Shown here one piece after another: positions 3,259-50,203 of a DNA stretch of 53,223 nt. Source of the stretch: Fibrobacter succinogenes (GTDB lineage: Bacteria; Fibrobacterota; Fibrobacteria; Fibrobacterales; Fibrobacteraceae); the NCBI GenBank assembly GCA_902762795.1, contig CACWPM010000033.1, positions 1-53,223 on the forward strand. Reading direction: 5' to 3'. The notes beneath the pieces are model-generated. The model saw nothing but the letters and a program-made list of their open reading frames with translations. It was not told the DNA's origin and did not search any database. Position numbers and translations under genes: made by a program. Each line of letters starts with the position of its first letter. The stretch's first letter is position 1.

Positions 3259-3338
3259 AATAGCTCACTGAAGGTTATAGGTTTTAGGATATTTTTACAC
3301 GATTTGTGAGCTTGAAAGGTGCGGCTTTGCCGCGATTT

Positions 3339-3376
3339 TATCCTACAACCTAATCCCTAAAACCTGTTACCTGCTA
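3339..3376 (-). repeat. 7-base degenerate tandem repeat anchored on the cysE stop
   Basis: Read on the minus strand, the cysE stop codon TAG is followed by five heptamers of the type YAGGNWN, for example CAGGTAA and TAGGATA. Period 7 holds over 35 bases. The flank just beyond reads AATCGCGGC, also found beyond the repeat at 19686. Confidence 0.75.
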
Positions 3377-15600: not shown

Positions 15601-15621
15601 GCTACAAATATATTTATTTAA

Positions 15622-15649
15622 GACGAGAGACGAAAGACGAGGGACGAGA
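15622..15649 (+). repeat. Four tandem heptamers of GACGARR
   Basis: Four consecutive 7-base units (two GACGAGA, one GACGAAA, one GACGAGG) lie just upstream of mqnE, purine-rich on the plus strand. The same heptamer recurs at 45510-45539 on the opposite strand. Confidence 0.75.
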
Positions 15650-15740
15650 GAAAATGATTGTGATTGGTTGAGCGTTGCCTCGTCCATACAGTTTAACAAC
15701 GTTTGCTATGTCCGCTTGTTTTTCGGAATCGTCGCAAAAC

Positions 15741-17124: not shown

Positions 17125-18770
17125 AAATTATTCTCCAACAATTGCATTGCGTGGGTTCGGACCGTTTCGGAAGACCCGCCTAACATTCTAGCAATTTCTT
17201 CAATACGTCCGTTCTTGTCGAGGTCGATAATAGACGTAAAAGTCCTACCATCAACCTCTTTCTTGCTCACGGCGAGTTGATTTTCGGCACGGCTTGCCAC
17301 TTGATGCAAGTGGGTGATGGTGAGTACCTGGTGGTGCTTGCCCAAATTGCGCAAGGCTTCTCCGATGCTGTTGCCTGTTTCGCCCGAAATGCCGGAATCG
17401 ACTTCATCAAAAATGAGCAATGGGACTTTGTCGAGATCTGCCATGACGCTCTTGATGGCGAGCAGCACACGGCTGAGTTCACCACCGGAAACTGCCTTCT
17501 GCAAAGATTTTTCGCCTTCGCCCGGGTTCGGGGCTAGTAAAAATTCGATGCGGTCGGCGCCGTTTGGCGTTGGTTCTTGTTCGGTGATGCTTGTAAAGAA
17601 CCTGGCTTTGGGCATACCGAGGTTATGCAAAATTTCTTGTACGGCCGAATCAAAACGAAGTGCGGCTTCACGCCGCTTTTCGGTGAGGCTTGCGGCGATG
17701 CTGTATGTTTCTGCTTTGTAATTGTCGGCTTTGCGTTTGAGGTCTTCAAGGTCCGCATCGAGATTTTCGAGGCTGTCGAGTTCTTGCTTACGTTGTTCGT
17801 TCAATGCTATGAGTCCGGTGACATCGGTGCGGTACTTGCGCTTTAGCTTTTGGATAAGTGCGATTCTTGCGTTCGCGCGGTCTATTTCAACAGGACTCAT
17901 GGCTTTTGAAGGACGTAACCTTTGCAAGTCTTTGCATATTCCTTCGAATGGGTCGGCGACCTCGAGAAGCGCATTCAAGTCTTCTTCGTAGTGAGGAATT
18001 TTTTGTGCGAGACTACGTAATTTGTACTGAAGATTTTGAACTTGTTCGAGAATGCCGTTGTCGCAACCAATCAGTCCTTGAATTTCGTTCAGCAGATTAT
18101 GCTCCGCTTCGCTCTTGCTTGCAATATTAACTTTTTCTTCAAGTTCTTCTTCTTCTCCATCGCGAAGAGCTGCTTTTGAAAGTTCATCGTACTGGAACTT
18201 CAAAAACTCTTTTTGCTGTGCAAGGTCTTTGGCGTGCGCTTCTGTCTTTTGAATTTCGGCGAGAACGTTGTTCCAAGCGTTGTAACTTTTTGAATAGTTT
18301 GTCAGTAGCTCGCTGTTGTCCGCGTATTCGTCGAGCATCTTTGCATGCGTGCGGATGTCGCGCAATAACAGTTGTTCGCTCTGTCCGTGCATCTGGATAA
18401 GCGCTTCTCCAAGTTCCTGCAAATCCGAGAGACTTACGACGGCTCCGTTCACGCGGGCGCGTCCTTTCCCGTTTTCGAGAATTTCGCGGCGGATGATGAG
18501 TTCGTCATCGTCGTCGAGTTCCAGCTTTGCAAGAATTTGTTTGACTTCGGGTTTGTCCTTGATATCGAATGTTCCTTCGATAACGGCTTTTTCTTCGCCG
18601 GTGCGGACCATCGAGGCTTGCGATTTGTCGCCGCAGACCATGCGTAGCGCTTTCATAAGAACGGATTTGCCGGCACCTGTTTCACCCGTAATAGCTGTAA
18701 ACCCCCCGTGGAAGGGGACCTGAGCTTCGGCAATGAGAGTGAAGTTGTTTATTGTAAGCTGCTTTAACAT
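17121..18770 (-). CDS. recN: DNA repair protein RecN
   Basis: 549 residues, normal length. An SMC-like ATPase acting early in double-strand-break repair by recombination. Walker A is GETGAGKS at residues 29-36. A coiled-coil middle runs from about 150 to 370, with many Lys/Glu heptads such as KRKADNYKAETYS. Then come the ABC signature KAVSGGELSRVLLAIKS and Walker B LLIFDEVDSGISGE, followed by the HHQVLTITHLHQVAS switch region typical of RecN. It is the first gene of a two-gene unit with the pgsA-like gene. Upstream lies the ~110-base repeat element at 18799-18922. Confidence 0.96.
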   Translation of the reverse strand: MLKQLTINNFTLIAEAQVPFHGGFTAITGETGAGKSVLMKALRMVCGDKSQASMVRTGEEKAVIEGTFDIKDKPEVKQILAKLELDDDDELIIRREILENGKGRARVNGAVVSLSDLQELGEALIQMHGQSEQLLLRDIRTHAKMLDEYADNSELLTNYSKSYNAWNNVLAEIQKTEAHAKDLAQQKEFLKFQYDELSKAALRDGEEEELEEKVNIASKSEAEHNLLNEIQGLIGCDNGILEQVQNLQYKLRSLAQKIPHYEEDLNALLEVADPFEGICKDLQRLRPSKAMSPVEIDRANARIALIQKLKRKYRTDVTGLIALNEQRKQELDSLENLDADLEDLKRKADNYKAETYSIAASLTEKRREAALRFDSAVQEILHNLGMPKARFFTSITEQEPTPNGADRIEFLLAPNPGEGEKSLQKAVSGGELSRVLLAIKSVMADLDKVPLLIFDEVDSGISGETGNSIGEALRNLGKHHQVLTITHLHQVASRAENQLAVSKKEVDGRTFTSIIDLDKNGRIEEIARMLGGSSETVRTHAMQLLENNL

Positions 18771-18798: not shown

Positions 18799-18922
18799 AG
18801 CTATGGGGTATGGGGTCGCTCGTAAACTCGCTTTGAGGTCGCTTCGCTTTGGGGTATGCTTTTGCCCATAGCCCAAAGGGAGCCGAAGGCGACCGAGCCC
18901 ATACCTGAAAACCTAATACCTA
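18799..18922 (+). repeat. ~110-base dispersed element, copy 1, ending in 7-base repeats
   Basis: It starts GTATGGGGTCGCTCG and ends CGACCGAGCCCATACC; the ends are imperfect inverted repeats (GGTATGGG...GTCGC). Copy 2 is at 49492-49612 in the opposite orientation; shared blocks include CTCGTAAACTCGCTTT, AGGTCGCTTCGCTTTG, TTTTGCCCATAGCCCA and CGAGCCCATACCT. On the minus strand 18901-18922 is made of heptamers TAGGTAT and TAGGTTT, the first of which is the trmB stop codon. Confidence 0.75.
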
Positions 18923-19672: not shown

Positions 19673-20015
19673 GTTGTTGTTTCCAAGGTATCAGGTAATA
19701 GGAGTTAGGTATTAGGTTTTTATAATCGCGGCTAAGGTTGGTGTGCGTGTCGAACCATGCTGCCTGACTGACCTGAATTCTATAGCCTATTTAAAGTTCA
19801 ACTGTTTTTTGTTTTTAAACTCTTTCCTCTTTGTACTATTGCCTTGCGTTTATTCTTCTTTTGTTTTACTTTACTGGATCCATACAATTCAAATTTTGCA
19901 ATGTATGGATTCCCTCCTTCGCTACGCTCAGTCGAGAATGACTCTCATTTCTAGAATCTCTAGTAACTAAGCTCTAAGTTCTGCCAACTTCCTACTTTCT
20001 ACCGCCTACTGTCTA
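19673..20015. other. Intergenic region without a gene
   Basis: 343 bases between trmB and the RNase Z-like gene. It holds the heptamer repeats at 19686-19720 and 19981-20018 and, near 19905-19940, a REP-like piece with CTTCGCTACGCTCAGTCGAG. No open frame with a ribosome site was seen. Confidence 0.6.
19686..19720 (+). repeat. Five tandem heptamers of AGGNNNY type upstream of trmB
   Basis: Units AGGTATC, AGGTAAT and three more follow each other at exactly 7 bases. The flank beyond (AATCGCGGC) is shared with the repeat behind cysE at 3339. Confidence 0.75.
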
Positions 20016-20018
20016 CTA
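19981..20018 (-). repeat. Heptamer repeat anchored on the stop of the RNase Z-like gene
   Basis: On the minus strand the stop codon TAG is followed by five 7-base units of TAGRNRG (TAGACAG, TAGGCGG and so on). The phase is exact over 35 bases. It places TAG in all three frames within 21 bases. Confidence 0.8.
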
Positions 20019-45505: not shown

Positions 45506-45509
45506 AATC

Positions 45510-45539
45510 TCTCGTCTTTCGTCTTTCGTCTCTTGTCTA
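45510..45539 (-). repeat. Heptamer repeat between nuoH and nuoI
   Basis: On the minus strand four 7-base units (GACAAGA, two GACGAAA, GACGAGA) start on the last base of the nuoH stop codon and end five bases before the nuoI ATG. It is the only array inside an operon. The unit is the one seen at 15622. Confidence 0.75.
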
Positions 45540-46661: not shown

Positions 46662-47801
46662 CTACCTGTCAATTTCCGGAATCACGGGGTCAAGAGTTGC
46701 CATGATGGTCACGAGGTCCGAAATCTTGTGACCTTGAGCCATTTTGTTGATTGCTGCAATATGCGGGAAGCTTGGACCGCGAGTGTGGATGCGGTACGGC
46801 TTTTCACCGGTCGTTGCGGCGACAACGTATGTGGCGTAAAGACCCTTTGCGGTTTCAATTTCGCTGTAGTAGCGGCCCACGGGGAGTCGCACCGGCTTTT
46901 CTTTGGAACGCCACGGACCTTCGGTCGGGAACTTTTCGACGCACTGGCGCAGAATCTTGAGCGATTGATGAATTTCAGCAATGCGAATCTGGTAGCGGTC
47001 GTAGCAGTCGCCGTTATGGAACACGGGCACGTCAAAGTCAAGCTGGTCGTAAATGCTATACGGGTTTGCACGGCGCACGTCAAAGTTCACGCCGCTTGCA
47101 CGGAGCACGGGGCCCGAGCAACCGTAAGCAATGGCATCTTCTTTGCTCAAAACGCCAATGCCGATGCTGCGTTCCAACACGATGATGTTTTTCGAAAGGA
47201 ACCTTTCGTAGTCCTTCATCGTATCTTCCATGTGGTCGAGGAACGCTTTTACGCGAGGGATAAACGTATCCGGCACGTCGTAACGGCTTCCGCCCGGTCT
47301 AAAGAAGTTCGTCGTGAGGCGGGAGCCTGTCACTTCTTCGAGCATGTCGTGAATCATTTCACGTTCCTTGAAGCCGAACAAGAGGCAAGTCTGTCCGCCA
47401 AGGTCACCGCCAAAGCAACCGTAGAACACCAAGTGCGAGGCAATACGGCCCAGTTCCTGGAGCATCACGCGGATGTATTCGCCACGGAGCGGAACGCCCA
47501 CGTTCATGCCCTTTTCAAGAGCGATGACAACGCCCAAGTTGTTCTGGATAGCGGTCAAATAGTCCTGACGGTCCGACATCGCGATGTACTGCAAGTAGCT
47601 CATCGATTCCGCTTGCTTTTCCATACCGCGGTGGATATAGCCAAAGTGCGGGACAACTTCTACAATGGTCTCACCGTCCATGCGGAGTGTGAGTCGCAAA
47701 GCACCATGCGTACTCGGGTGCTGCGGACCCATGTTGATAAAAAATTCTTCAGTATTCGATTTGCGTTCGAGGCGAAATCCCGGAGGTAACTGATGACTCA
47801 T
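46662..47801 (-). CDS. nuoD: NADH-quinone oxidoreductase subunit D (49 kDa)
   Basis: 379 residues, not fused to NuoC as it is in E. coli. The quinone-site loop [14 protein letters not shown] near residue 24 has the conserved His. Then [33 protein letters not shown] and the C-terminal [18 protein letters not shown] typical of the family. The start overlaps the nuoBC stop by four bases. Confidence 0.96.
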
Positions 47802-49057
47802 ATAGGCCTCCTGATCATTTCCGGGTGAGTAAAGTCTTTACGGAGCGGGAAACCCACAAAATCCTTGTCGAGGAATATGCGGCGCAGATCGGGGTGATTT
47901 TCAAACTTGATGCCGAACATGTCGTAAACTTCGCGTTCCTTGATTTCTGCACCGGGATAGAGATGCGAAATGGTCGGGACGCTGGCCAAAAGCGATGTCG
48001 GACGCTGTTCTTCGTCAATGGAAAAGTTTTTCTTGAGTTGTACGCAAAGGAAAATCTTGTGGCCGATTTCAAGGCTTCGGAGCATCGTCACCATGTCGAA
48101 GTGATCATCGTAGTCAATCGCGGTCACATCGATCAGGTAATCCATCTTGAATTCGGGATCGTTCTTGACAAATTCAACGACGTTCAGGTAGTCTTCCTTT
48201 TCGAGCATGACTTCGAGCGGGCAGTCTGCGGGTAACTTGGCAACGACATCTTCAGGCGTGTCTTCACCGCGCGTATGCACGGTCACGTTCGGGAACTTTG
48301 CGTGGAGCTTTGCAAAAAGCTCTTGCTGCGTGAGGCCCAAGCGCTTGAACGGCACGCGTTCCACTTCCGGGAAATCCGGCTTCTTGACGCGGATAGGCTT
48401 GAATGCACTCTTGTAGTCCGGATTTTCTTCCTTGAACTTTGCGCGGGCTTCGGCCATCTGCTCGTCTTTCATTTCTTCGAGCGCAGCCCATGTCTTTGCG
48501 GCTTCGCGATAGCGGTCCATCGTCGAAACGTCCTTCGGTTCACCTTCGTGCCACGGGTTGCGGCAAGTTTCCTTGAGGATCTTTTCGCGGAGCGTCAAAA
48601 GCCCGTGGAACAAGGCTTCGGGGCGTGGCGGGCAACCGGGAACGAACACGTCGACCGGGATCAAGTTCTGTGCACCACGGACAACAGAATAGTTGTCGTA
48701 GATGAACGGGCCGCCGCTAATCGTGCAGGCTCCCATTGCAATTACGTACTTGGGTCCTGGAATTTGTTCCCAAAGCATCTGGATGGCGGGGGCCATGCGA
48801 CGGGTAATCGTTCCTGCCAAAATAAACAAGTCTGCCTGTCTCGGGGACGAGCGGAACACTTCAGAGCCGAATCGGGCAATGTCGTAACGAGCCATAGAAC
48901 TCGACATCATTTCGATAGCGCAACAGCTTGTGCCGTACGTCAGAGGCCAAATAGAATTTGCACGAGCCCAGTTGACTACGTAGTCAATCGCGTTGACTAC
49001 ATATTTTCCACCGGGGATAGGGTCCAAGATCTTTGGAGCTAAATTGATTATTCCCAT
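47798..49057 (-). CDS. nuoBC: Fused NADH-quinone oxidoreductase subunits B and C
   Basis: 419 residues in one uninterrupted frame. Residues 1-160 are Nuo[12 protein letters not shown] with Cys45 and Cys46, [11 protein letters not shown] with Cys111 and [11 protein letters not shown] with Cys142, the four ligands of cluster N2. Residues about 165-250 are a charged linker with Lys, Glu and Ala ([19 protein letters not shown]). Residues about 255-415 are Nuo[30 protein letters not shown] and [15 protein letters not shown]. NuoC-NuoD fusion is well known; NuoB-NuoC fusion is much less common. It overlaps nuoA by ten bases and nuoD by four. Confidence 0.95.
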
Positions 49058-49431: not shown

Positions 49432-49501
49432 CAGTAAACAGTGGTTAGTGATTAGTGGTTTGTTAAAAGTCAATAGTTGTTCGATAGTAGCTATGAGGTA
49501 T
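49432..49501 (+). repeat. Ten-unit degenerate heptamer array upstream of nuoA
   Basis: Ten consecutive 7-base units in constant phase, mostly of NAGTNNN type (CAGTGGT, TAGTGAT and so on), decaying into GAGGTAT. It is the longest array in the window and merges into the dispersed element at 49492. Confidence 0.8.
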
Positions 49502-49612
49502 GGGCTCGGGCCTATGGCCCTCTGGGCTATGGGCAAAATGCTTTATTTTGTACCTCAAAGCGAAGCGACCTGAAAGCGAGTTTACGAGCGACCTCATACC
49601 TCATACCTCTTA
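49492..49612 (-). repeat. ~110-base dispersed element, copy 2, ending in 7-base repeats
   Basis: Inverted relative to the copy at 18799 (see its shared blocks). Here, too, one end passes into heptamers (two GAGGTAT, one GAGGTCG on the minus strand) that start on the stop codon TAA of the gene ending at 49610. Confidence 0.75.
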
Positions 49613-50203
49613 ATAGAAATTCTGCAAGTCCTGGACGGTTCCGAAGAGCGTGTTCGCAATTTGAAAGCGGTCCAAAACGTGTTTTAACAAGTCCTTAAAT
49701 TCGTCAATGGTTCCGGCATTCATGGTGTTCAATTTGCCTTGAATGTCGCTCACAAAACCGTAAACCACAGGGCTCGATTTCATGCCCTGCATTTCCCCAC
49801 TCCATTGCTGTAACACTTTGTCTGTATCGATTCTTGCAATAACATAGCGCGTCGTCGAAAGCAGCTCTTGCAAAAAATGCACAAGGAAAATTTCTTCTTG
49901 CAAAATACCCCAGCGTTTGTCCTTGGAGTATAGTGAAGAATTTTCGGCCTTGCCGTAGAAAATTGCGGCCTGAGCGTATTCGAGACATGTCATCAAAAGT
50001 CTTTCGTAGCGCTTGATGTCATTGCTCAAATGCTGGTACCATGCACTGTTTTCTTCGGGAGACGAGTCCTTCGCTTCTGCAATCTCGTTCGGGAACAGCG
50101 CACGGAAAGCGTAATAAACTTCCTCGTAATAGCGGTTCCTCATGCGGCAGTTGAACGCGCGATTTTTTTGTGTGTAGTCGCAATGGTGTAAGGACGATAT
50201 CAT
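49610..50203 (-). CDS. Unknown protein co-translated with rel
   Basis: 197 residues; its ATG overlaps the rel stop by four bases (ATGA), so it is almost surely made from the same transcript. No signal peptide or membrane segment; largely helical by composition, with FRALFPNEIAEAKDSS, ENSAWYQHLSNDIKRYERLLMTCLEYAQAAIFYGK and a C-terminal helix DEFKDLLKHVLDRFQIA. No motif is recognised. The coupling suggests a job linked to (p)ppGpp, but this is only from position. Confidence 0.8.
   Translation of the reverse strand: MISSLHHCDYTQKNRAFNCRMRNRYYEEVYYAFRALFPNEIAEAKDSSPEENSAWYQHLSNDIKRYERLLMTCLEYAQAAIFYGKAENSSLYSKDKRWGILQEEIFLVHFLQELLSTTRYVIARIDTDKVLQQWSGEMQGMKSSPVVYGFVSDIQGKLNTMNAGTIDEFKDLLKHVLDRFQIANTLFGTVQDLQNFY

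Follow-up and report, generated by a model that had tools for sequence, protein, structure and literature searches.

Fibrobacter is a genus of fibre-digesting gut bacteria. In its genomes the gaps between genes are often taken up by short palindromic cassettes with degenerate heptamer arrays as arms. The starting point was a set of heptamer runs in a window of 53,223 nucleotides from Fibrobacter succinogenes (contig CACWPM010000033.1; the window is the whole stretch of DNA analysed). With a probability that I put at about 0.6, these runs are pieces of short palindromic intergenic elements, ~30-130 bp long, which form a superfamily and have spread as cassettes. Heptamer repeats have been noticed in unrelated bacteria, with no function or origin established for them, and the Fibrobacter case ties heptamer arrays to palindromic elements. 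Heptamers were already known to outnumber other long simple repeats in many bacteria, and in Xanthomonas and Nostoc to follow a position rule and to be depleted between divergent genes. The multiplicity of unit classes, the palindromic architecture with covarying hairpins and the turnover of cassettes are new here, and no earlier description of such repeats in Fibrobacter was found in the open-licence literature.

The seven-base period and its unit classes

The preliminary description listed eight intergenic runs with a fixed period of 7 and a changing unit. All eight are present when the sites are read directly. Seven have a lag-7 score that was reached by 0/1000 dinucleotide shuffles, while the run at 18901-18922 is weak when taken alone (31/1000). 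Their intergenic placement needs a qualification, since the runs at 15622-15649 and 45510-45539 lie inside mechanically over-long ORFs, yet at gene junctions. The former is a four-unit AGACGAR array at a gene edge (15621-15651, + strand; lag-7 score 16, 0/1000 shuffles) and the latter an AGACGAR array at the junction of two nuo genes (45508-45538, - strand; 0/1000). A third array, of CTTCCTA/CTGTCTA units on the CTA strand (19967-20017, +; score 16, 0/1000), is a C-rich arm adjoining the edge of the following gene.

In 453 kb of this genome (the window plus 400 kb sampled in stretches), period 7 and its multiples were the sole strongly enriched intergenic periods. Using genes called by a simple method of my own and arbitrary thresholds for the lag-7 score, 58 intergenic segments were obtained at the stricter threshold, against 0-2 in shuffles, and 80 at the looser one, against 3-9. 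At the stricter threshold, lags 14, 21 and 28 were echoes of lag 7 and all other intergenic lags gave 0-7 segments; coding DNA, in the same scan, was enriched mainly at multiples of 3. The excess over shuffled intergenic DNA, for which a test had been set beforehand, was thus found, other periods are not equally common, and the period-7 observation is confirmed as real. Genome-wide, TAGTGGTTAGTGGTTAGTGG gave 87 matches with at most 3 mismatches, against 3 for the reversed control, and four tandem copies of CCTANNN gave 152, against 2 in the control.

The unit does vary under its fixed period, as first proposed, but "drifting" does not describe it well: clustering resolves the variation into several discrete classes, each found at many places per genome, and variation within a class is confined to fixed positions of the unit. 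The classes of this genome are TAGGNNN, AGACGAR, TAGTGRT, TAGTCAW, TTAGARC and AGTAGRM. Some classes reach most species, as AGACGAR does (69/80 genomes), and others are confined to part of the genus, such as AATGTGN, a class of other species (38/80 genomes, none in this one). CCTANNN arrays range from 0 to ~400 matches per genome inside the genus and are sparse outside it. Dispersed classes, together with class sets that differ between species, support the earlier proposal of spread by some common process. One array of 21 AGTAGG units (locus L014, ~17581-17726) fills the gap between two genes and is built of alternating 14- and 28-base higher-order repeats.

Palindromic elements with heptamer arms

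For 46 of 117 arrays (39%), a clear same-class partner stands in inverted orientation on the other side of a spacer, and over all classes the inverted partner is favoured over reversed, complemented and direct controls (p ~1e-9 or below). In this genome alone, 17/67 arrays have a clear inverted partner; a first, stricter arm-pairing test on this genome gave no excess over shuffled partners, the later scan, with its reversed and complemented controls, being more sensitive. Each arm is a tandem row of heptamers in which a core is conserved and the other positions vary, TAGG followed by NNN being the best case. Hairpins of the type GYGGC-GCCRC occur at 1.26 per kb near arrays and at 0.05 per kb elsewhere in intergenic DNA, a ~25-fold difference in density.

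Class A is the best-defined class, with a length of ~117 bp and tens of copies per genome (up to ~50 DNA matches), paralogs being at most ~81% identical; the best genomic relatives of a copy are up to 78-81% identical to it along almost its whole length. An alignment of 24 copies, taken from different loci, has the order TAGG arm, hairpin, hairpin, CCTA arm. The two internal hairpins keep pairing through compensatory base changes: pairing stands at 96.2%, and 30 cells are doubly changed where shuffles give 8.7 (0/500). A covarying stem formed by the arms themselves was rejected. The arm cores are almost invariant and the arm spacers pair less than shuffled ones (39.6% versus 46.4%, alignment A1), so that the arms look like sequence sites. 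The low pairing between spacers of opposite arms in this alignment looks as if a long perfect palindrome were avoided. A covariance model of class A matches at least 63 of the 111 family genomes, nearly all of them in the genus Fibrobacter; these counts are lower bounds, as no more than 33 candidates were scored in each genome.

Several runs of the window are pieces of such elements. A class-A element at 3262-3372 (+ strand; covariance model R1, E=1.4e-12; 74% DNA match to another copy) consists of a TAGG arm, a GCGGCTTTGCCGC hairpin (3321-3333) and a CCTA arm, and the run described at 3339-3376 is its right arm. A weak class-A element occupies 19686-19788 (+; covariance model E=0.001), with a TAGG arm at 19686-19720 whose lag-7 score was reached by 0/1000 shuffles. 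Class F has two copies in the window, 18801-18907 (+) and 49496-49605 (-), which are 82% identical on opposite strands. The first is composed of a GGGGTAT/GAGGTCG arm, hairpins and a GCCCATAGCCC...CCCATACCT arm, and its end plus CCTA units makes up the weak run at 18901-18922. The likening of these runs to the STRR of filamentous cyanobacteria is incomplete: many arrays are inverted arms of hairpin-bearing palindromic elements that appear to turn over as whole cassettes.

Position and turnover at gene junctions

The G-rich strand runs outward from the nearest gene edge in 89/94 cases (47:2 in this genome, 42:3 in relatives), a skew that is absent from non-array intergenic DNA. Inverted arms placed between two genes would produce this outward rule automatically. 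Arrays are sparsest where the two neighbouring genes diverge, at 0.58 per kb versus 1.2-1.4 in other gaps.

The main site, between an ORF of 197 aa and nuoA, had been described as one run (49432-49501) and proves to be a mosaic. A TAGTGRT array running into TAGTCAA-type units (49440-49489, +; read directly and compared with relatives) adjoins the nuoA start and is partly common to genomes G077, G114 and G128. The separate class-F element at 49496-49605 fills the remainder of the junction, takes in the run at 49589-49612, and is replaced by a different insert in relatives. The proposed comparison of the same gaps between relatives shows junctions that are bare in some and occupied by different classes in others. 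At the nuoA junction, 37/54 Fibrobacter genomes have an array above threshold, of many classes, and bare junctions measure 2-9 bp. At the junction of the two nuo genes, G130 carries an AGACGAR array, G067 a TAGTCAW array, and six relatives are nearly bare. Two related nuoA alleles (L157 and L158) are set apart by 26 bp, a unit that combines one heptamer stretch with a GGGC-GCCC hairpin, as if hairpin modules were added inside AGACGAR arrays.

Overall substitution rates of arrays and flanks were abandoned as a measure, being muddied by the alignment of different classes, and junctions were therefore split into alignable and not alignable. At junctions with arrays, 106/129 species pairs were not alignable (82%), against 195/580 (34%) at junctions without arrays. 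Where array pairs could be aligned, their median identity was 0.956, versus 0.917 for flanks. Array junctions often reach ~99% identity in species that differ more in their flanks (80-93% identical), or else show no relationship; some non-array junctions (13/385 alignable pairs) are also more conserved than their flanks. In junction group 104, G000, G112 and G130 have 125-126 of 126 bases in common, and their flanks are 84-96% identical over the first 50 bp; G105, which of the sampled genomes is closest to G130, is without the insert. I read the arrays as turning over as whole cassettes, from comparisons that cover few junctions, non-independent species pairs and relatives that are mostly metagenome assemblies. 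At a single gap the cassette differs from species to species, apparently through swaps that leave the adjoining genes in place, and this suggests that intergenic DNA can be exchanged between species at a given junction independently of what flanks it.

Two other explanations have to be weighed against this evidence. One is that the arrays are ordinary heptanucleotide simple repeats, arising from local seeds, expanding by slippage that favours 7-base steps and decaying, with nothing mobile. Among long repeat units in bacteria, that of seven bases is the most frequent, and slippage has been put forward for it (cited in PMC4692102 and PMC4679880); several near-identical pairs of same-class nuoA alleles show differences of 7 or 14 bases, and the 21-unit array with its higher-order repeats also fits. 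However, copy-number change in 7-base steps is clear at that one junction only, gap lengths inside arrays over all junctions being weakly multiples of 7 (11/50 versus 64/516 elsewhere). Moreover, the same few units recur at many unlinked places, variation is held to fixed unit positions, and neither inverted partners nor covarying hairpins would be expected. I regard this explanation as unlikely.

The second, likewise improbable, is that the arrays are selected regulatory elements, binding arrays or structured UTRs acting on translation, mRNA stability or termination of their neighbours. Closeness to start and stop codons, strict orientation, covarying hairpins and the identity of some elements, far above that of their flanks, are in keeping with it, and translational control has been proposed for TAACTGA repeats (PMC4679880). 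Against it, in close relatives one junction may be empty or hold other classes, arrays are sparsest between divergent genes, array junctions fold no better than other junctions, and a search of Rfam at the gathering score matched the elements to no family, finding only tRNA. Regulation of neighbours is possible, but folding and conservation of occupancy do not support it.

Relation to known repeats and possible mobility

Xanthomonas (GGGAATC, GGGANTN) and Nostoc (GGGGAYT) have G-rich degenerate tandem heptamers, under-represented between divergent genes, for which the outward G-strand rule has been published: within 50 bp, the G-rich strand is the coding one after stops and the non-coding one before starts (PMC4692102). 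Fibrobacter resembles them in its intergenic tandem heptamers with fixed and variable positions, in the position rule and in the depletion between divergent genes. Unlike those lineages, each of which has one unit type, a link to G-quadruplexes and stable positions (PMC4692102), Fibrobacter has many classes, several of which lack GG runs, inverted arms together with hairpins that covary, and rapid replacement at the same junction. The TAACTGA heptamers of marine Beggiatoaceae and others are intergenic direct repeats, often abutting start codons, and heptamer repeats of Cyanothece differ in copy number in 7-nt steps (both in PMC4679880). TAACTGA repeats have one exact unit, and in the sections of PMC4679880 consulted no palindromic element is described, whereas Fibrobacter has such elements. 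In phase-variation repeats a gene is switched by changes of copy number from strain to strain; the 7- and 14-base differences seen in Fibrobacter are between related genomes. G-tracts capable of forming G-quadruplexes occur in some Fibrobacter classes at most, units such as AGACGAR, TTAGARC and TAGTCAW having no GG run. Since a single period and a single orientation rule hold for many classes, a general explanation by G-quadruplex formation is excluded.

MITEs and other non-autonomous relatives of insertion sequences have inverted ends, dispersed copies, and sites that are either occupied or empty. The Fibrobacter elements are MITE-like in their inverted partners, dispersed copies and bare versus occupied junctions, and differ in their tandem heptamer arms, in the lack of a consistent target duplication and in having no linked transposase that could be found. 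Sixteen comparisons gave no target-site duplication of constant length; the element ends are ragged, with end overlaps that vary from 2 bp to losses. Like REP, BIME and REPIN sequences, the elements are short non-coding palindromes present in many copies between genes, with several families per genome (PMC3733652, PMC2817692, PMC3116915), and the maintenance of class-A hairpins by compensatory changes is a further REP-like trait. REPs are 20-40 bp long and bear a GTAG or CGTC tag, the GTAG type being tied to RAYT (PMC3733652, PMC2817692, PMC3116915); the Fibrobacter elements are longer, their arms are heptamer arrays, and their abundance is not tracked by the Y1 transposase domain, nor was any mobilising enzyme linked to them. 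That they are REP elements mobilised by an IS200/RAYT-type (Y1) transposase is very improbable, for although they are palindromic, intergenic and in many copies, and one intact Y1_Tnp match, with a fragment besides, is found in this genome, array-rich G132, G077, G067, G107, G108 and G115 (several of them incomplete assemblies) have no such match, and class A measures ~117 bp against 20-40 bp for REPs (PMC3733652).

If the elements are indeed palindromic cassettes, they would spread as non-autonomous REP/MITE-like units that enter gene junctions, selection removing insertions inside genes, and would be exchanged between species with almost no flank. An enzyme, or recombination that needs very little flank, could account for the spread. 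A putative sequence-specific protein probably contacts the heptamer cores, the hairpins would be read as single-stranded DNA or RNA, and slippage in 7-base steps would probably alter copy number secondarily. More tentatively, and as something possible rather than probable, the elements may represent a hitherto undescribed class of mobile non-coding cassettes, with heptamer arms on a hairpin core, interchangeable arm classes and flank-free exchange at junctions, moved by a putative enzyme. If so, this inverted architecture would also give rise, as a by-product, to the outward G-strand rule of Xanthomonas and Nostoc.

Three further features were observed in the course of this work. The 197-aa protein (49610-50203, - strand), whose gene lies between nuoA and a RelA/SpoT gene, matches no Pfam family and has relatives throughout Fibrobacter and in a few other Fibrobacterota. 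The ORF at 47798-49057 (-) combines NuoB (Oxidored_q6) and NuoC (Complex1_30kDa) domains and is thus a NuoB-NuoC fusion. Finally, another dispersed palindromic repeat, GGATCC...CGTTCAGGATGAC / GTCATCCTGA, often lies beside heptamer arrays, as at locus L042 upstream of nuoA and at ~19880-19950 of the window.
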